Of a stretch of 64,000 bases of DNA, positions 2,928-13,368 are shown in pieces. Numbering within the stretch: position 1 is the stretch's first letter; each line of letters starts with the position of its first letter. The notes under the pieces were generated by a model. The model was not told where the DNA came from. It worked only from the letters and a program-made list of their open reading frames with translations, and made no database searches. Source of the DNA: Tuberibacillus calidus DSM 17572 (GTDB lineage: Bacteria > Bacillota > Bacilli > Bacillales > Sporolactobacillaceae); the NCBI RefSeq assembly GCF_000430685.1, contig NZ_AUMM01000018.1:1-64000 (forward strand). The letters are read 5' to 3'. The translations under genes and the position numbers were made by a program.

Positions 2928-5249
2928 ATGACTCCTTCATGGCTATCACTTATACCTTTTCTCATCGTTATTCCAGTTTCCATTATCACAAAGCAAGTGC
3001 AGCCAGGGTTATTCGTGGCTTTGCTCGTTGGCAGCTACCTTGTTGAGCCAAGTCTTCTCGGCGGCATAAAAAAGTTCTTGGACTATATTGTACACACGAC
3101 GATTGTGTCGAATAATATACGAATTATTATTTTCCTTTATGGTTTCGCTGGGCTGATTAACATTATTAAAATGGCCGGCGGGATTAAAGGATTTGTGGAC
3201 CTTGTCAGCAAAAAGGTGAAAACGAAAAGAAGTGCCATGGCCCTGACATGGCTTTCCACGATCGGGACCTTCAGCGATCCGGATTTCCGCATTGTTACCA
3301 TTGCGCCAATCATGAAAGCGCTGAAAGATCGCTTAAAAATGTCGGCGCGCCGCATCGGCATCGTCATCGAAGTAACTTCTAATCCCGTTGTCGCGCTTGT
3401 ACCGATCGCGACAGGGTTTGTCGGTTACATGGTGAGCATCATTAACACAGCGCTCAAGCAGGCCGGCATTCACCGAGCGCCTTACCTGACTTATGTTGAA
3501 AGCATCCCGTTTAACTTTTTTTCCTTTGCGATTCTTGGAGTCGGGATTTATTACACTTTCTTTATGCATCGGAAACATGAAAAAAAATATCATTTTACCG
3601 AAAATGAAAAAGCTGAAGCATTAAACAATGCCCGAAAATCGAGCGAGACGATCCCTCAGCTGGTTACACCGCCTCCGCAGCCGTCCTATGCCATGCTAAA
3701 TGAAATGGCCCAAGAGCCGATGCCATTCCAATCCATCACAACAAATGCCGCCCCGCCGTTTAGTCCCGTCCAAAGCGGGGAATTATCCAATCTCGCTGAC
3801 ATCTCACTGAACGGTACAGGAGCCAAGCCGATTGTGGGCGGCGCATCTGATCGATTGCCAAAAAATAATGACCAACCAGTTTTAGGGCAAATGGGTGCGA
3901 ATACTGCTAACCCCACAGGATCTAACGGCAACGCCCTTTCACTAAACGGGGGGCTGCCGTCGAACCCAAACGGCATGGCGGGACAGCCCAACGTCAACAC
4001 TCTTCCGCAGAATGGGCTGCAACAGCCCCAACCAAACGCCATGTCGCCTCAGCCGGTCGGTAACACGCCTAACGGGGTGCAACTATCAAACGCAAACGGC
4101 ATGGCGGGACAACCCAACGTCAACACTCTTCCGCCGAATGGGCCGCAACTGTCCCAACCAAACGCCATGTCGCCTCAGCCGGCCGGTAACACGCCTAGCG
4201 GGGTGCAACTTTCAAACGCAAACGGCATGGCGGGACAACCCAACGTCAACACTCTTCCGCCGAATGGGCCGCAATCATCCTTTTCAAGCGAGCTATCGGA
4301 ACAACCTGTTGGTAACGCAAACCCACCGGCTGAACCATCGATGACAAATCCAAATCATGTGCCTTTACCTGACACATCGAATGCGTCCCTGTCCGCTACC
4401 ACTATGTCAGCCGTTACGACAGCGCACGACCATGTTTTTAATGAAGAGTATGCCCGTAACTTAGATGCCTCTTTATTGAACAGCGGACATGTTGAAAAAA
4501 TGAACAACCCGAATGAAAAACAAGGTGAGGAAGATCTACAGCAACCGAATAAAGATTATGACGAAAAAACCCCATCACGGCCGTGGAATTTGATTTTGCC
4601 GTTAGGAACCGTTTTGCTCCTCACCCTCTTTTTGAGTTGGTGGGACGGCCACTTTAAGGCAAACACTTTCTTTGGTGCTTTTATAAAGGTGGATGCCCTT
4701 GGGGTGATGCTTGAAGCCTTACTCATTACCTTGATTTTGACCATCATCTTTTTTATGGTACAAAAATTTCCGGTGGCCAAAATTGTCACCCACTTCATAA
4801 ATGGTGGCAATCAGTTGATGTCCGTCATTGTGCTTTTGGCACTCATATGGGGGGTTTCAGCCGTATCCGAAGACCTTGGTTTTTCAAAATACATTACCAT
4901 GCATGTCGAAAACTGGATCCCGCCTAGTCTTGTCGCACCGGTTTTATTCCTGCTTGGTGCTGTCATATCGTATTTTATTGGGTCTTCGTGGGGGACGTGG
5001 GGACTTCTCATGCCTCTAGGCATCATGCTCGCCCATCACGCCAATGCGAACATTTTTCTCGTCATCGGCGCCGTCTTTGCCAGCGGAACTTTCGGGGCCT
5101 TTGCTTCCCCATTAAGCGATAACACCGTAACACTGTGTACCATACTGGATTTGCCCGTCATTGAGTATGCTAAATCAAAACTCGTTCCGGCGCTCATTGC
5201 TGCTGGCATCGCCTGTGTATTATTTATCGGCTTCTCATTTATCCTTTAA
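2928..5249 (+). CDS. NhaC-family Na+/H+ antiporter with a long central repeat-rich insert
   Basis: Encodes 773 residues, far longer than I would expect for an NhaC antiporter (about 450-520). Residues 1-215 and from about 550 onward are two hydrophobic blocks typical of the family, with STIGTFSDPDFR in the first half and SSWGTWGLLMPLGIMLAHH and ASPLSDNTV in the second. Between them, about residues 215-545 are hydrophilic and rich in Asn, Pro, Gln and Gly, containing near-perfect 42-residue repeats. The insert sits at the loop joining the two halves. The reading frame is continuous across it, so this is not a broken gene. The ATG follows a GCGGGTG ribosome site. It is monocistronic as far as can be seen. 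Confidence 0.85.
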   Translation: MTPSWLSLIPFLIVIPVSIITKQVQPGLFVALLVGSYLVEPSLLGGIKKFLDYIVHTTIVSNNIRIIIFLYGFAGLINIIKMAGGIKGFVDLVSKKVKTKRSAMALTWLSTIGTFSDPDFRIVTIAPIMKALKDRLKMSARRIGIVIEVTSNPVVALVPIATGFVGYMVSIINTALKQAGIHRAPYLTYVESIPFNFFSFAILGVGIYYTFFMHRKHEKKYHFTENEKAEALNNARKSSETIPQLVTPPPQPSYAMLNEMAQEPMPFQSITTNAAPPFSPVQSGELSNLADISLNGTGAKPIVGGASDRLPKNNDQPVLGQMGANTANPTGSNGNALSLNGGLPSNPNGMAGQPNVNTLPQNGLQQPQPNAMSPQPVGNTPNGVQLSNANGMAGQPNVNTLPPNGPQLSQPNAMSPQPAGNTPSGVQLSNANGMAGQPNVNTLPPNGPQSSFSSELSEQPVGNANPPAEPSMTNPNHVPLPDTSNASLSATTMSAVTTAHDHVFNEEYARNLDASLLNSGHVEKMNNPNEKQGEEDLQQPNKDYDEKTPSRPWNLILPLGTVLLLTLFLSWWDGHFKANTFFGAFIKVDALGVMLEALLITLILTIIFFMVQKFPVAKIVTHFINGGNQLMSVIVLLALIWGVSAVSEDLGFSKYITMHVENWIPPSLVAPVLFLLGAVISYFIGSSWGTWGLLMPLGIMLAHHANANIFLVIGAVFASGTFGAFASPLSDNTVTLCTILDLPVIEYAKSKLVPALIAAGIACVLFIGFSFIL
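3969..4290 (+). repeat. 126-bp in-frame tandem repeat, about 2.5 copies
   Basis: Units begin at 3969, 4095 and 4221, exactly 126 bases apart, each opening with aacggcatggcgggaca. They encode 42-residue repeats starting NGMAGQPNVNTLP and containing QPNAMSPQP. The third copy diverges after about 60 bases. Because the unit length is a multiple of three, copy-number change would keep the antiporter in frame. Confidence 0.95.
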
Positions 5250-7181: not shown

Positions 7182-7892
7182 GTGTTTTCGCTAATCGGGA
7201 GCCTCACATACTTGATTAAGGAGTTCTGGCTTTTTGTCTCTTACGTCAAAAACAACGCCTTCCCGCAACCGCTTCCGGAAGACGAAGAACGCGAATGCCT
7301 TGAACGGATGGCTGCGGGCGATAAAGCCGCCCGGGATAAACTGATTGAACATAACTTAAGGCTAGTGGCCCACATTGTCAAGAAGTTCGAGAACACGAAA
7401 GAAGACAGCGAAGATTTAATCTCCATCGGCACAATCGGTTTGATCAAGGCGATCGAAAGCTATGCACCAGGCAAGGGAACGAAACTGGCGACTTATGCGG
7501 CGCGCTGTATAGAAAACGAAATTCTCATGCATCTGAGAAGTTTGAAAAAAACTCGGAAAGACATATCCCTGAATGACCCGATTGGTCAAGATAAGGAAGG
7601 GAACGAAATTTCACTCATCGATGTTCTGAAATCCAAAAATAAGGATATCGTCGATGAGATCTCCTTAAAAATGGAGAAAAAGAAAATATATGAGTACTTA
7701 CACATTCTTGATGACCGGGAAAAAGAGGTCGTTATTGCCCGCTTCGGGTTGGATAACCACAAAGAATTGACGCAGCGAGAAATTGCGAAAATGCTCAACA
7801 TCTCTCGCAGTTACGTCTCACGGATTGAAAAGCGCGCCTTGATGAAGCTATTTAATGAATTTTACCGGCAGCCAAATCGAAAAAGTCGATAA
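7182..7892 (+). CDS. sigK: Pro-sigma-K, late mother-cell sporulation sigma factor
   Basis: Encodes 236 residues. Residues 1-20 form the hydrophobic pro-sequence ending FVS, and the mature protein should begin at Tyr21 in [11 protein letters not shown], as in B. subtilis, where SpoIVFB cuts. Region 2 ([42 protein letters not shown]) and region 4 ([38 protein letters not shown]) are complete. The gene is continuous; the skin element that splits it in B. subtilis 168 is absent. The GTG start follows GGAGGTG. It directs late coat and mother-cell lysis genes. I expect sigma-E control but found no convincing promoter. Confidence 0.97.
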
Positions 7893-8375: not shown

Positions 8376-8432
8376 AGGAATAAATAAAAGATTAGCGTTT
8401 TCATAGAAACCCATTTGTTAGGGGGAGGACCG

Positions 8433-9554
8433 ATGGGGAACAAATTGACGACGACTGTTGCCGGCCTTTGCGCCTGCGGAATGTTGCTGGTTGCGCCATT
8501 AAGTGCCTCGGCAGATACATACTCATCTTTGGTAAAACAAAAAAATTCCGTTACCAAGCAAAAACAAGCTGTTAAAAGCGATTTGGAAAAGCTAAAAAGC
8601 CAAATTGAAACATTGACCGGAAACATTTCCAAAACCCAAATCGAAATTGGCAAAATCCAAGCCGAAGTGACGAAGCTGAATCAATCCATTGCGGAGACGC
8701 AAAAACGCATTGATGAACGGCAAAAGCTGTTGAAAGATCGCATGGTCGCTTCTTATAAAAACGGCGGGTCTTCTGTCAACATTTTAGAAGTGCTCATGGG
8801 TGCTGACAGCTTCGGTGATTTTATCAACCGGGCAGTAGCCATCTACAATATTACCGACCATGATAAAGATATGATCCAGAAACAAATGGCTGACCAAAAG
8901 CTGTTAAAGGATCAAAAGGCAAAAGTCAAAAAGGACTTGGCCAAAACGGAACAAAAACTACAAGAACTCAATCAACTCGTCGCCAAAATTAAAGCCATTC
9001 AAAGCGAAAAGCAAACGACGCTTAATGATTTAAATAGTAAGGAAAATAAACTTCTTGCACAAATTCAAAAGGAAAACGCAAGAAAAACGGCATTAGTTAC
9101 GAGACCAAACAGCGGGCAAACGGTAGATGCCAACACCATCGTGCAAATGGCCTATATTCCGCAAAGTGCAGCCAATGGCGATATCGGTGACCTCGTCAGT
9201 GCCGCCCGTCGGTATATCGGTCACTCATCCTATGGGTTCGGGGCCATGGATCCCGTACACGGCGTCTTTGACTGCTCGGGATTTGTCAACTGGGCCTATC
9301 AGCAAATTGGCATCAATCTTGGTACGCGTTCGACATCCGGACTGCAGTATGTCGGTTCTCAAGTCTCCCGAAGCGAACTGCGTCCCGGCGACTTGGTTTT
9401 CTTCAATACATACAAGAATAACGGTCATGTCGGCATTTACATTGGTGGCGGTCAATTCATCGGTTCTCAAAATGGAACAGGCGTTGCGATTGTCAGCCTG
9501 AGCCACCCCTATTGGAACAGCCGCTACAGCACAGCGCGCCGTGTGCTTCATTAA
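8433..9554 (+). CDS. Secreted coiled-coil NlpC/P60 peptidoglycan endopeptidase, CwlO-like
   Basis: Encodes 373 residues. A signal peptide occupies about residues 1-27 and ends SASA-D. Residues 30-225 form a long coiled coil rich in Lys, Gln and Glu. The C-terminal 130 residues are an NlpC/P60 domain with catalytic Cys281 in DCSGFVNWAY and His332 in GHVGIYIGGG. This domain order is that of CwlO, the D,L-endopeptidase that cuts wall stem peptides during cell elongation and is activated by FtsEX through its coiled coil. The ATG at 8433 follows GGGGGAGG; the frame opens slightly earlier but without a ribosome site. A strong terminator follows. Exact orthology to cwlO is likely but not proven. Confidence 0.9.
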   Translation: MGNKLTTTVAGLCACGMLLVAPLSASADTYSSLVKQKNSVTKQKQAVKSDLEKLKSQIETLTGNISKTQIEIGKIQAEVTKLNQSIAETQKRIDERQKLLKDRMVASYKNGGSSVNILEVLMGADSFGDFINRAVAIYNITDHDKDMIQKQMADQKLLKDQKAKVKKDLAKTEQKLQELNQLVAKIKAIQSEKQTTLNDLNSKENKLLAQIQKENARKTALVTRPNSGQTVDANTIVQMAYIPQSAANGDIGDLVSAARRYIGHSSYGFGAMDPVHGVFDCSGFVNWAYQQIGINLGTRSTSGLQYVGSQVSRSELRPGDLVFFNTYKNNGHVGIYIGGGQFIGSQNGTGVAIVSLSHPYWNSRYSTARRVLH

Positions 9555-9568
9555 GGAATGAAAAAACG

Positions 9569-9618
9569 AGGCTGTCTCTCATGTTCTGATCAGGACATTG
9601 GAGACAGCCTTTACTTTT
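9569..9618 (+). terminator. Terminator of the wall hydrolase gene
   Basis: A 10-bp stem AGGCTGTCTC (9569-9578) with GAGACAGCCT (9601-9610) is followed by a T-rich tail. The loop contains a second palindrome centred on CTGATCAG. Confidence 0.88.
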
Positions 9619-9806
9619 TCTTTCGCTCATGTCTATCATTTGCCCCTCTAAAACTTGCCTTCTGTCCTTTTCTCCCTTTAAATACTTCCTGCTGCAATTT
9701 CCTTCTAAGGACTAAAATTTCTATTTTACTATTCAACAGGTTTTCCATTTTTCTATACAAGTCATTTGCCAAAGTCACATATGTATGAATATGGGGGTGT
9801 CGAAAC

Positions 9807-11336
9807 ATGAATTTAACGGTCATGATTGTCGGGGCGATTGCTATTTTCTTTCTGATCGGCCTTGCTGCACACTTTCAAGTAACCCGCTCCTTAACCAAGT
9901 GGCTGGACGAAGTGCAGAATCTTGCTTTCGATCGCACAAGCCGAAACCCACCATCGCCTTGGCTCGGCGTAGTCATTGAAGAGTATCGCAACCATCGCGT
10001 AAACCAAATCCCTGTCAATACCCAAGCATTGATTGAGAAACATTTGATGCAACAACGGGTGGTGCTTGCTGGAATTTTTCCCGCTCCAATTGGTAATGTC
10101 GCAAAAATGATCGGCTTTATTCCATCTTTTACGATCATTCTTGGTGTCCTCGGCACCTTTATTGGCCTCACGCAATCGCTGTTTGCAATGCAGCATACCC
10201 TGCTTTCTCTTGGGAACGGACAGGAAAACGGCCCCTTGTCCTTTGATGCCGTTTTAGCCGCGATCTCCTCTCCCTTCCAAGGGATGAGCACAGCTTTTAT
10301 TACAAGCATCGCCGGAATCGGCACCGCTTTTCTGCTCAATTTCCTCCAATCAGGTTTTCTGTCCGGCGGCCGTTCCGTCTCCTATTTGACGAATAAACTT
10401 TTTAGCGAATGTGAGACATTGCTTGAGCACGTTTATGAAGCCAAAATAGCCCTTGAACAACCGAATGATACATACGAGCGCATCCTAGAGCGGCTGGCCA
10501 ATAGAATCCGTGACAGTTTCCAAGAAACGATCGGAGATTTCAGTCAAAATATGATCCATTTCACCGAAAAGCTGGACGAAACCGTCGCAAAAGTTCACAC
10601 ATTGATCGGTCAATTGCAAACCCATGCCGAAGCCTTTTCGCAATCGGCGGAAAAGCTGAAATTGGTGAGTGTGTCTTTCGACAAAACAGCCATGCGATTT
10701 GCTGAAGCAAACAAAAGCAGCGAAAACCAGGTCCAAGCCTTAAAAGCAGCGGTCGAACGCGCTTTCCAACGGGCGGAATCTCACGAACAACGGTTAGAAC
10801 AAGCGGCTAAACAAACGCTAAGCTTTATCGAAAGAAGCGACAAAAAGTCCGAGGAGCTCAGCCGCCAATTCTTGCGCGCAATGGAAGCGCAAATGGAAGG
10901 TTTCCACGAAAAATATGATCTAGCCGCAAACCACCTGCAGCGCCAACAAGAAGACTTTATTTATAAACAACAGGAAATGACCAATCAATACGCCCAGACA
11001 GCAGAGGCGTTTTCGGAGTCAATCGATCAACTCGAACGCTCGCTATATCAAATGTTCGAGAAGACGAAGCGCGATATTCTTGATCATATAAAATATCAAA
11101 ACGACCGAAAAGCGCAATGGTTGAACCAAGATGACCGCCGCCAAGAGCTGCGCGATTTGTCAAGGAGCTTCGAAACCCTCTCGCACAACATGGAACGGCA
11201 GTGGGCGGACAATCAACGATATATCCAAGATTTTTACCAATTATTGAACCGAATCTCTTACCTCATCGAACAACAAACCGCCTACCAGCAACAGAAGATG
11301 TCCCGCCCATTACCAACACGGGTGATTGACACATGA
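9807..11336 (+). CDS. ZorA-like MotA/TolQ/ExbB-family channel protein with long cytoplasmic tail
   Basis: Encodes 509 residues. There is an N-terminal membrane helix (about 5-23) and two further helices at about 103-127 and 160-185. These carry GVLGTFIGL (113-121) and MSTAFITSIAG (160-170), the conserved pore segments of the MotA/ExbB superfamily. Residues 190-509 are a continuous hydrophilic, heptad-rich tail, as in ZorA of the Zorya anti-phage system, and unlike flagellar MotA or MotP. The ATG follows GGGGGTG. It overlaps the MotB/ZorB-like gene by 4 bases (ATGA), so the two subunits are translationally coupled. No flagellar genes are nearby. It most likely forms a proton- or sodium-driven stator with its partner; its biological use is unknown. 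Confidence 0.85.
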   Translation: MNLTVMIVGAIAIFFLIGLAAHFQVTRSLTKWLDEVQNLAFDRTSRNPPSPWLGVVIEEYRNHRVNQIPVNTQALIEKHLMQQRVVLAGIFPAPIGNVAKMIGFIPSFTIILGVLGTFIGLTQSLFAMQHTLLSLGNGQENGPLSFDAVLAAISSPFQGMSTAFITSIAGIGTAFLLNFLQSGFLSGGRSVSYLTNKLFSECETLLEHVYEAKIALEQPNDTYERILERLANRIRDSFQETIGDFSQNMIHFTEKLDETVAKVHTLIGQLQTHAEAFSQSAEKLKLVSVSFDKTAMRFAEANKSSENQVQALKAAVERAFQRAESHEQRLEQAAKQTLSFIERSDKKSEELSRQFLRAMEAQMEGFHEKYDLAANHLQRQQEDFIYKQQEMTNQYAQTAEAFSESIDQLERSLYQMFEKTKRDILDHIKYQNDRKAQWLNQDDRRQELRDLSRSFETLSHNMERQWADNQRYIQDFYQLLNRISYLIEQQTAYQQQKMSRPLPTRVIDT

Positions 11337-12022
11337 AGTCGAGGAAACCATGGATCTCCGAACGGGTCGAAGAACAATACTGGCCCTCATTCACCGATAT
11401 GATGGCGATGGTCGTCCTCGTTTTTTTATTTATCAGCCTCATCGCTTTCGTGCAAAGCATCTATCATTCCTATGAACAAACACAAATCCGTCGTGAACTC
11501 GCTAAAGCCGCAAATATAAAAAAGCATATTTCCGATTTGATTAATAAAAAAATGGCTGACCAAGTTGGGCGTGATAAAATCATTCGCGGGCCGAATAATA
11601 CGATATCCATTCAAGGGGATGTCCTCTTTGATTCTGCGAGCGCGAGACTTAATGAGAAAGGTAAAAAAGTTTTGGACAATGTCGCCGATGCCCTCGTCGA
11701 TATTATCAACGACAAGGCATTAAGCCAATATATTTACATCATCTTGATTGAAGGGCATACGGATTCGGTACCGTATGATAATTGGCATTTATCGTCCGAC
11801 CGCGCCTTAGCCGTCTTAAAATACATGCAAAAGGCAAACCCGAAACTCAGTGAAGATCGCTATGCCAAATTTCTTGCGGTCACGGGCTACTCAAAATATA
11901 AGCCAGCCGTCCAAGGCGATTCACCGGAAGCCAGGCAAAAAAACCGTCGCATCTCTTTTCAAATCATCCTTGACGACAACAAATGGCAAACCAAAATCAA
12001 AGACATTATGGTCGGAAAATAA
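11333..12022 (+). CDS. ZorB-like MotB/OmpA-domain stator subunit
   Basis: Encodes 229 residues. One membrane helix (about 22-43) is preceded by PSFTDMMAM; Asp22 sits where MotB and ZorB keep the ion-carrying aspartate. A linker follows, then an OmpA-type peptidoglycan-binding domain with EGHTDSVP (140-147), LSSDRA (153-158) and a C-terminal NRRISF arginine pair. The protein would plug the ZorA-like pore and anchor it to the cell wall. The start codon overlaps the stop of the upstream gene, and a strong terminator follows, so the operon has only two genes. No ZorC, ZorD, ZorE or other effector gene lies next to it. Confidence 0.87.
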   Translation: MKSRKPWISERVEEQYWPSFTDMMAMVVLVFLFISLIAFVQSIYHSYEQTQIRRELAKAANIKKHISDLINKKMADQVGRDKIIRGPNNTISIQGDVLFDSASARLNEKGKKVLDNVADALVDIINDKALSQYIYIILIEGHTDSVPYDNWHLSSDRALAVLKYMQKANPKLSEDRYAKFLAVTGYSKYKPAVQGDSPEARQKNRRISFQIILDDNKWQTKIKDIMVGK

Positions 12023-12075
12023 CGGTAGACGTTTAAAACGCTATCCACCGATTTTTATACTTTCTCGCAAAAAAA

Positions 12076-12116
12076 AAGTGCGAAAGCCTTCCGCGGCTTT
12101 CGCACTTTTGTTTTTT
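12076..12116. terminator. Strong bidirectional terminator between the motor pair and odhB
   Basis: AAGTGCGAAAGCC (12076-12088) pairs perfectly over 13 bp with GGCTTTCGCACTT (12095-12107). A T-run follows on the plus strand and an A-run precedes it, so it serves both convergent units. Confidence 0.93.
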
Positions 12117-12120
12117 GACA

Positions 12121-13368
12121 TTAACCTTCGAGCAATAAGGATTCTGGATCTTCCAGGAGTTCCTTGACTTTTACGAGGAAGCTGACGGCTTCCTTGCCAT
12201 CGACGATCCGGTGGTCGTAAGACAGAGCCAAATACATCATCGGGCGGATTTCCATCGTTTCTTTATCGATCGCGACTGGGCGATATTGGATTTTGTGCAT
12301 GCCCAAAATACCAACTTGTGGGGCATTTAAGATCGGTGTCGAAATCAGGGAACCGAATGTCCCGCCGTTTGTAATCGTAAAGGTGCCGCCTTGTAAGTCA
12401 GCGAGAGTGAGTTTACCGGATCGGGCTTTTACGGCGAGGTCGGCAATATCCCTTTCGATTTCCGCAAACGTTTTCCGGTCAGCATCGCGAACGACCGGAA
12501 CAACAAGTCCTTCATCGGTTGAAACAGCGATGCCAATATCGTAAAACTTCTTAATCAACAAATCCGTTCCTTGAATTTCCGCATTGAGAAGAGGGAATTC
12601 TTTCAAGGCGCCGACAACGGCTTTTGTAAAGAAGCTCATAAAGCCAAGTTTCACATCATGTTTTTTCATAAAGGCGTCTTTACGGCGGGCCCGGACATCC
12701 ATGATGGCCGTCATGTCGACTTCATTAAATGTTGTCAGCATCGCTGCCGTGTGTTGAGCTTCCACGAGTCGAGTCGCAATCGTTTGACGACGGCGCGTCA
12801 TGCGAACACGCTCAACGGGTTTTGCCGGGTTTTCGGTGGCTTTCGGCGCCGTTGCGCTAGCAGCCGGTTGAGCTTGTGATGCCGCCGGTTTTGTTGCTTC
12901 GCGTTTCACATCTTCAGGGCGAATGCGGCCGAGCGGATCACTTGCTGCAACGGTTTTCAAATCGATGCCAAGTTCACGGGCGAGCTTGCGGGCAGCCGGC
13001 GTTGCCACCAAGCGTTCATGGCTTTCAGCTGCTTCAGCTGCAGCCGGTGCTTCTGCTTTCGGGGCTTGAGCTTCCGGCTGTGCTTCTTCTTTTTTCGCCT
13101 CTGGTGCTGCTTTCGGTGCTTCTCCCGGAGCAGCATTCGGATCTAACACCGCAATGACTTCACCGACTTCAACGGTATCGCCTTCACCTTTCTTAATTTC
13201 TGTTAAAACCCCTTCGTCTTCAGCGGCGATTTGAACATTGACTTTATCGGTTTCCAATTCGACGATGTCATCGCCTTTATTCACCTTTTCACCGACATTT
13301 TTTAACCATTTGGCAATGGTACCTTCTGTGATGGATTCCGCCAGTTCCGGAACTTTTACTTCAACCAC
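12121..13368 (-). CDS. odhB: Dihydrolipoamide succinyltransferase, E2 of 2-oxoglutarate dehydrogenase
   Basis: Encodes 415 residues. The lipoyl domain (1-77) has the lipoylated Lys in [11 protein letters not shown]. An Ala/Pro/Glu-rich linker (80-110) leads to a peripheral subunit-binding domain (about 117-153, [16 protein letters not shown]). The catalytic acyltransferase domain ends with [13 protein letters not shown], which holds the active-site His and Asp. The enzyme transfers succinyl groups from E1 to CoA in the TCA cycle. It follows odhA after 28 bases with a GGAGGAAAC-type ribosome site. The E3 subunit gene is not here, as is usual in Bacilli, where the pyruvate dehydrogenase E3 is shared. 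Confidence 0.97.

Follow-up and report, generated by a model that had tools for sequence, protein, structure and literature searches.

Two genes on the forward strand lie at positions 9807..12022 of the window, the 64,000-nucleotide stretch of the Tuberibacillus calidus DSM 17572 genome (contig NZ_AUMM01000018.1, positions 1 to 64,000) analysed here. The first (9807..11336) encodes a ZorA-like A subunit of 509 aa, assigned from its ORF, an AlphaFold2 model and Foldseek; the second (11333..12022) encodes a ZorB-like B subunit of 229 aa, assigned from its ORF, Pfam, and fold and profile matches. The two ORFs share four bases (ATGA), in agreement with the first-pass annotation of this DNA, and a ribosome-binding site GGGGG (9794..9798, +) precedes the ATG at 9807. 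A two-way intrinsic terminator (12074..12109, both strands) is common to the pair and a convergent odhB-like gene (12121-13368), found in the ORF list and named from its sequence; the terminator and the convergent odhB had both been recognized earlier, with the length of the terminator understated as 13 bp in place of the 15 pairs that the terminator scan gives. Upstream of A, positions 8415-9554 encode a peptidoglycan hydrolase of NlpC/P60 type that also has a PcsB coiled coil (by family models); the gene is closed by a terminator-like hairpin on the forward strand (9570..9609, stem 9570-9578 / 9601-9609), which was read in the sequence and is missing from the terminator-scan list owing to a loop over the limit of the scan. 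Since this hairpin ends the NlpC/P60 gene, the AB pair is probably its own transcription unit. Elsewhere in the window, positions 2928-5249 hold a Na+/H+ antiporter gene (773 aa) with a hydrophilic insert containing three copies of a 42-aa repeat, starting at residues 350, 392 and 434; its homologue in L017 has 593 aa.

The B subunit has a long N-terminal helix (residues 20-78) and an OmpA-type peptidoglycan-binding domain (residues 98-205, Pfam E 1.8e-15). Its Asp22 sits within WPSFTDMMAMVVLVF at the start of the hydrophobic helix and is invariant in all 28 aligned rows, which bears out the membrane Asp and peptidoglycan-binding domain proposed at first pass. MotA_ExbB is absent from the Pfam matches to A at E <= 1; the family alignment reveals the conserved motor motifs GTFxGL and TSIAG. 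In the AlphaFold2 model of A, computed from an alignment of 29 sequences (mean pLDDT 70.8), three long helices of membrane character (2-41, 95-137 and 146-181) are predicted, together with an insert at 51-94 that is folded into two helices (51-65, 72-82) and a beta hairpin (strands 84-87 and 91-94). An insert of two helices plus beta structure is called unique to Zorya-type A subunits in the legend to Fig. 4 of Puente-Lelievre et al. 2025 (PMC12505986), and the predicted model of A has it. The tail of about 320 residues noted earlier is confirmed (about residue 190 to 509) and is nearly all helix in the predicted model, where the helical part runs from about residue 190 to 498, some 300 residues with pLDDT mostly 47-74; by arithmetic, not as a measured length, a straight helix of that size would be about 45 nm long. 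The hydrophobic periodicity of the tail, as a family average, has its maximum at 3.5 for residues 245-341 and near 3.6 for residues 348-438, as in helical bundles. Conservation is about 0.50-0.54 in the mid-tail (286-330) and reaches 0.67-0.71 at residues 376-420, a rise which suggests that this segment of the tail sequence is a candidate docking patch.

By Foldseek, both subunits are closest to Zorya motors. Solved type I ZorA heads the matches to A (8vvn, E 7.2e-5; 8qyd, E 7e-4), and 8vvn type I ZorB is the best match to B (E 1.3e-11, TM 0.73). The profile search with B again gives 8vvn type I ZorB as the best match (2.1e-19), followed by flagellar-type 8ucs and MotB 6ysf at 5e-16; when the PDB is searched with the A profile, coiled coils dominate the results and 8vvn_C reaches only E 0.0036. 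VIA-align 2 scores the A head against ExbB, TolQ and ZorA at a tied Z of about 11-12.5, so that it cannot tell these three apart, and against flagellar PomA at 8.9 and 8.2. Mariano et al. (PMC11890865) give 8VVN and 8VVI as type I and type II ZorAB structures and describe ZorAB as a 5:2 assembly whose tail, peptidoglycan binding and ion flow matter for defence. A ZorA-like A subunit with a long cytoplasmic helical tail (model, Foldseek and periodicity) and a ZorB-like B subunit with membrane Asp and OmpA domain are thus both present.

Against this background the pair can be set beside its known relatives. It shares with type I ZorAB (Shewanella ANA-3 8VVN; E. coli 8QYD) the A fold with the two-helix/beta insert, the membrane Asp, the OmpA domain and the long A tail, but it lacks ZorC/ZorD, its A subunit has 509 aa (696 and 729 in type I), and it consists of core chromosomal genes that form a separate clade in the B tree. 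Type II and III ZorAB (L100-L103, L107) show the same motor plan and gene order, whereas no ZorE, DUF3348 or DUF2894 gene stands beside our pair. ExbBD and TolQR have the same three-helix A core and equal VIA Z, but they differ from the pair in its OmpA domain in B and its long tail in A. A second stand-alone pair of Bacillaceae (A about 607 aa, B about 231 aa; L021, L108-L111 and L114) occurs in other genomes of the order and likewise consists of two genes with no evident effector, but it falls in a clade of its own (100/99) that is nearer to type II, NYN and EH systems; L108, the only member submitted to PADLOC, has ZorB1 as its best match (246 bits). In L112:5110-9188, L113:5734-9814 and L116:5576-9492 an NYN-domain gene directly precedes a ZorAB-like pair; L112 and L113 have two further genes in common (59% and 69% identity), upstream in the former and downstream in the latter, and PADLOC left the NYN gene of L112 and L116 unmatched. 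These NYN-linked pairs are possibly an undescribed Zorya-like defence type. On a Prevotella plasmid (L106:1-9368), a ZorAB-like pair is flanked on both sides by annotated FtsK-type translocase genes, with an exonuclease gene before them.

In the B tree, in which the type I and III rows sit on very long branches and flagellar stators are represented by two Mot rows only, the 15 sampled members form one clade (98/97) that is sister to L096 plus L115 (97/94) and stands apart from MotB and from types I, II and III. Joining the clade to type II (p-AU 4e-4) or to the second Bacillaceae group (p-AU 1e-48) is rejected, as is its union with the type I ZorB of a relative (G386; p-AU 4e-7) in a tree from which the Zymomonas row, the longest branch, was left out; the position of type III depends on very long branches only. 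The A-head tree, built without the two Mot rows and without the A subunit of the second L112 pair, whose reading frame was wrong, keeps the clade (95/95), its sister not being resolved. The sister pair in L115 (L115:7632-12008, genome G677) has an A subunit without the long tail (343 aa) and lies directly before sleB-like and ypeB genes.

The distribution of the pair is patchy above the genus and complete within two genera. A single-sequence search of genome contigs returned no matches, and a search with the B alignment found 44 loci, of which 42 belong to the clade and 2 are distant. With the A profile at 1e-10, 69 of 397 genomes of the order matched, 39 of them strongly (570 bits or more, the clade) and 30 weakly (42-65 bits); across the phylum, 4 of 398 genomes matched, namely the genome of the window and three others at 53-94 bits. 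Within the family, which includes Pullulanibacillus and Scopulibacillus, the pair occurs in 6 of 26 genomes and 5 of 10 genera. With 39/397 genomes of the order and 6/26 of the family, the pair is dispensable to the order. At E <= 1e-50, exactly one copy is present in all 18 genomes of a Fictibacillus genus (g55, including F. arsenicus and F. phosphorivorans; F. macauensis and F. solisalsi belong to a further genus) and in all 14 of a Pseudalkalibacillus genus (g29, including P. hwajinpoensis, P. spartinae and Alkalihalobacillus macyae). Among 72,556 plasmid and 50,697 phage records near copies were not found, the 82 and 8 matching records all being below 60% identity. Zorya systems are expected to be patchy and often borne on mobile elements or islands, whereas this pair is patchy only between genera.

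Out of 46 loci examined for gene layout, one (L063) was left out of the counts, its B having been lost in ORF picking; A and B overlap in 34 of the remaining 45, the overlaps in L055 and L061 stemming from mechanical start-codon choice. In 36 of 45 loci the ORF that follows downstream (counted if it has at least 150 aa or a relative in another locus) is convergent; in one it falls off the contig, and in eight it is on the same strand. A same-strand ORF follows within 150 bp in four loci; three of these are unique, and one is a 91-aa ORF common to three Fictibacillus loci. In a group to which Sporolactobacillaceae, Pseudalkalibacillus and B. taeanensis belong the pair lies near sigK, yrhC, mccB, a cysK/mccA-like gene, luxS and mtnN (SigK within the fetched stretch in 21/45 loci, MtnN in 20/45); in Fictibacillus it occupies another chromosomal place. 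For the window, family models confirm the identity of SigK and YrhC; the other neighbours are presumably what their names say, having been recognized from sequence. Several neighbours were considered as partners and set aside as not widely shared: the NlpC/P60 gene, found in the window and three relatives only (cluster 41); an Mbl-like gene, named from sequence, in the stretch of 6 Fictibacillus loci only (cluster 46); and an EzrA-like upstream gene, found in one locus. The last, in Caldalkalibacillus mannanilyticus (L060:6005-8257), immediately precedes the AB pair on the same strand, and its 750-aa product contains an EzrA (septation ring regulator) domain. As to sigK itself, the gene is intact in the window (7182-7892). 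In L014:12101-14862 (G008) about 2 kb of inserted DNA splits it in two; the sole long ORF there encodes a serine recombinase of 492 aa, which makes the insert a very small skin-like element. In L016 (G009), from 11817 on, the match to sigK stops at residue 118 within the fetched stretch and genes that read as phage-like follow, as though a larger skin-like element interrupted the gene.

The pair is inherited with its surroundings and is under strong constraint. B distances correlate with those of LuxS, MtnN, SigK, MccB and YrhC (Spearman 0.88, 0.82, 0.77, 0.87 and 0.71; 0/500 permutations each) over 16-21 loci, all at the sigK/yrhC place and thus outside Fictibacillus, and B diverges in step with these five neighbouring genes, a vertical signal. 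Across 11 Fictibacillus loci (55 pairs) the median dN/dS is 0.033 for the A head, 0.024 for the tail, 0.035 for the distal tail and 0.020 for B, and 0.052-0.135 for six hand-picked flanking gene families (7-11 loci each), all six above A and B; these ratios are rough because dS is near saturation (medians 1.2-2.2), and a number of pairs, chiefly among flanking genes, gave no score. Protein identity agrees (B 96%, A 93%, neighbours 67-90%). Purifying selection on the pair is strong, the tail included.

Three other roles have to be weighed against that of a housekeeping motor. For a third flagellar or surface-motility stator one can cite the MotB-type OmpA domain of B, shared with MotAB/MotPS, the rank of MotB and MotS next after ZorB in sequence searches, and two flagellar basal-body-rod-like genes in the fetched stretch of 6 of the 46 loci, all from one Fictibacillus subgroup (cluster 17). 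The reading is nevertheless largely refuted and very improbable: grouping with flagellar MotB is rejected (p-AU 0.0048, or 0.032 with both distant sisters added, with two Mot rows), the predicted A model lacks the MotA helix plan and is Zorya-like in helix plan and insert, and type I ZorAB tops Foldseek for both subunits. FliG was found in 21 of 22 genomes tested, including all nine without the pair, and the one genome without FliG (G077) has the pair. No flagellar or chemotaxis gene is a consistent neighbour in the survey of 46 loci. The earlier view that this is not a flagellar stator holds. The first-pass annotation had left two choices, a housekeeping envelope motor or an immune motor with a remote effector, and the latter, a minimal or split Zorya that would sense phage-induced wall damage and recruit an effector encoded elsewhere, is quite unlikely. 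It draws on the Zorya-type fold of both subunits and on PADLOC matches of the window pair to ZorB1 (E 1e-34) and ZorA (E 6e-11), but the curated NCBIfam cut-offs are not reached (ZorA 36.8 of 100 bits, ZorB 44.1 of 400). As proposed at first pass, no effector gene (ZorC/D, ZorE, ZorF/G) was found in the operon of this two-gene Zorya-type motor, either in the window or in the related loci. In the genome of the window, ZorC-type and ZorE models have no match, and the ZorD model finds general helicases only, none over the cut-off. Helicases resembling part of ZorD occur in all 42 clade genomes, none over the cut-off, but also in 11 of 14 controls, so that matches to this model say nothing by themselves. 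ZorE gave no match over the cut-off in the 42 genomes (three weak ones at 21-22 bits), and the ZorC-type EH_Signature is absent from 40 of them. In the remaining two genomes, G111 and G386, it accompanies a separate AB pair: the EH gene of G111 adjoins a further pair (L112, L138), and in G386 a row of ZorA, ZorB, ZorC (PADLOC 6e-46 on 92 residues) and ZorD (a helicase match to the ZorD model) is followed by a resolvase-like ORF (L137), with the core pair on another contig. The ZorAB of that type I Zorya scores 35 and 79 bits against the A3 and A4 profiles, and the core A 675 against profile A1; a true Zorya thus comes with a motor of its own, which is present alongside the core motor. We prefer the housekeeping reading because the pair is universal in two genera, is under strong purifying selection and carries a vertical signal, because the genome of the window has no ZorC, ZorD or ZorE over the cut-off, and because the Zorya of a relative carries its own ZorAB.

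It is also unlikely that the pair is a wall motor of sporulation or germination that depends on a sporulation sigma factor for its expression. The hosts are spore formers, as the first-pass annotation had it, but the sporulation link of the pair is not borne out. Upstream of A lies a promoter-like element, CAAGTC-N14-CATATGTAT (9758..9786, +; CATA part at 9778-9786), which is conserved in relatives. Of 35 upstream regions, which are related to one another, 28 carry CATAnnn[AT]T within 60 nt of the start codon (shuffled mean 1.9, maximum 5), as do 12 of a more diverse subset of 16 (shuffled mean 0.9); CAAG-N14-17-CATA occurs in 12 of the 35 (shuffled mean 0.3) and 7 of the 16 (shuffled mean 0.1). 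The -10-like part, which resembles sigma-E/K promoters, is present as a CATA element in 33 of 35 upstreams and speaks for sporulation control, as do sigK in the fetched stretch of 21 of 45 loci and the position of the distant sister pair L115 before sleB-ypeB. So does TTCGACA, presumably the complement of the Spo0A-box core, in 8 of 9 upstreams of the Pseudalkalibacillus group (shuffled mean 0.3 of 35); in the window TGTCGAA lies at 9798, beside the start codon and overlapping the ribosome-binding site. On the other side, the 35 upstreams have no match to the sigma-E, K, F or G two-box consensus, and searching them for consensus sites of sporulation sigma factors and of sigma-A, B, D, H and W gave no excess. 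The two-box pattern of the window has 10 matches in the genome against 4 for a reversed control, no regulon being found, and the pair occurs in only a minority of the genomes of the order.

We propose, at a probability of about 0.6, that the pair is a housekeeping 5:2 ion-driven, wall-anchored motor of Zorya type, whose tail shaft would carry wall state or torque to a putative cytoplasmic partner; sequence, predicted folds, gene layout, distribution, vertical signal and selection are its direct basis. By analogy with solved ZorAB, five A subunits would ring two B helices, and ion entry past Asp22 and the Thr/Ser ring of the A subunits would turn or switch the A ring. The periplasmic OmpA domains of B would grip the wall, and the five A tails may form a long helical shaft passing wall state or torque inward, the wall-sensing role being a guess. 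The equally conjectural cytoplasmic partner could dock on the more conserved distal tail, at about 376-420. Its patchiness above the genus, its different place in Fictibacillus, the pLDDT of the tail and the VIA-align 2 tie for the A head speak against this model. The pair would work like ZorAB but falls short of a Zorya system in operon effectors, model cut-offs and distribution.

No description of this AB pair was found in the open-licence literature searched. Model-based defence callers can label such core genes as Zorya. Some spore formers keep an effector-free Zorya-type motor as an ordinary, strictly conserved chromosomal gene pair, and this suggests that wall-to-cytoplasm motors may do without an outer membrane. 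More tentatively, the Zorya motor might be one branch of an older and wider family of Gram-positive housekeeping wall-to-cytoplasm motors, in which an ion motor anchored in peptidoglycan turns a shaft tens of nanometres long and so drives or instructs a cytoplasmic or nucleoid machine; defence systems would then have borrowed the motor and added nucleases. To our knowledge, the signal sensed by the Zorya motor and the role of its tail have been studied inside an immune system with toxic effectors. The effector-free version in environmental spore formers makes the motor, wall sensing and tail function testable apart from defence.
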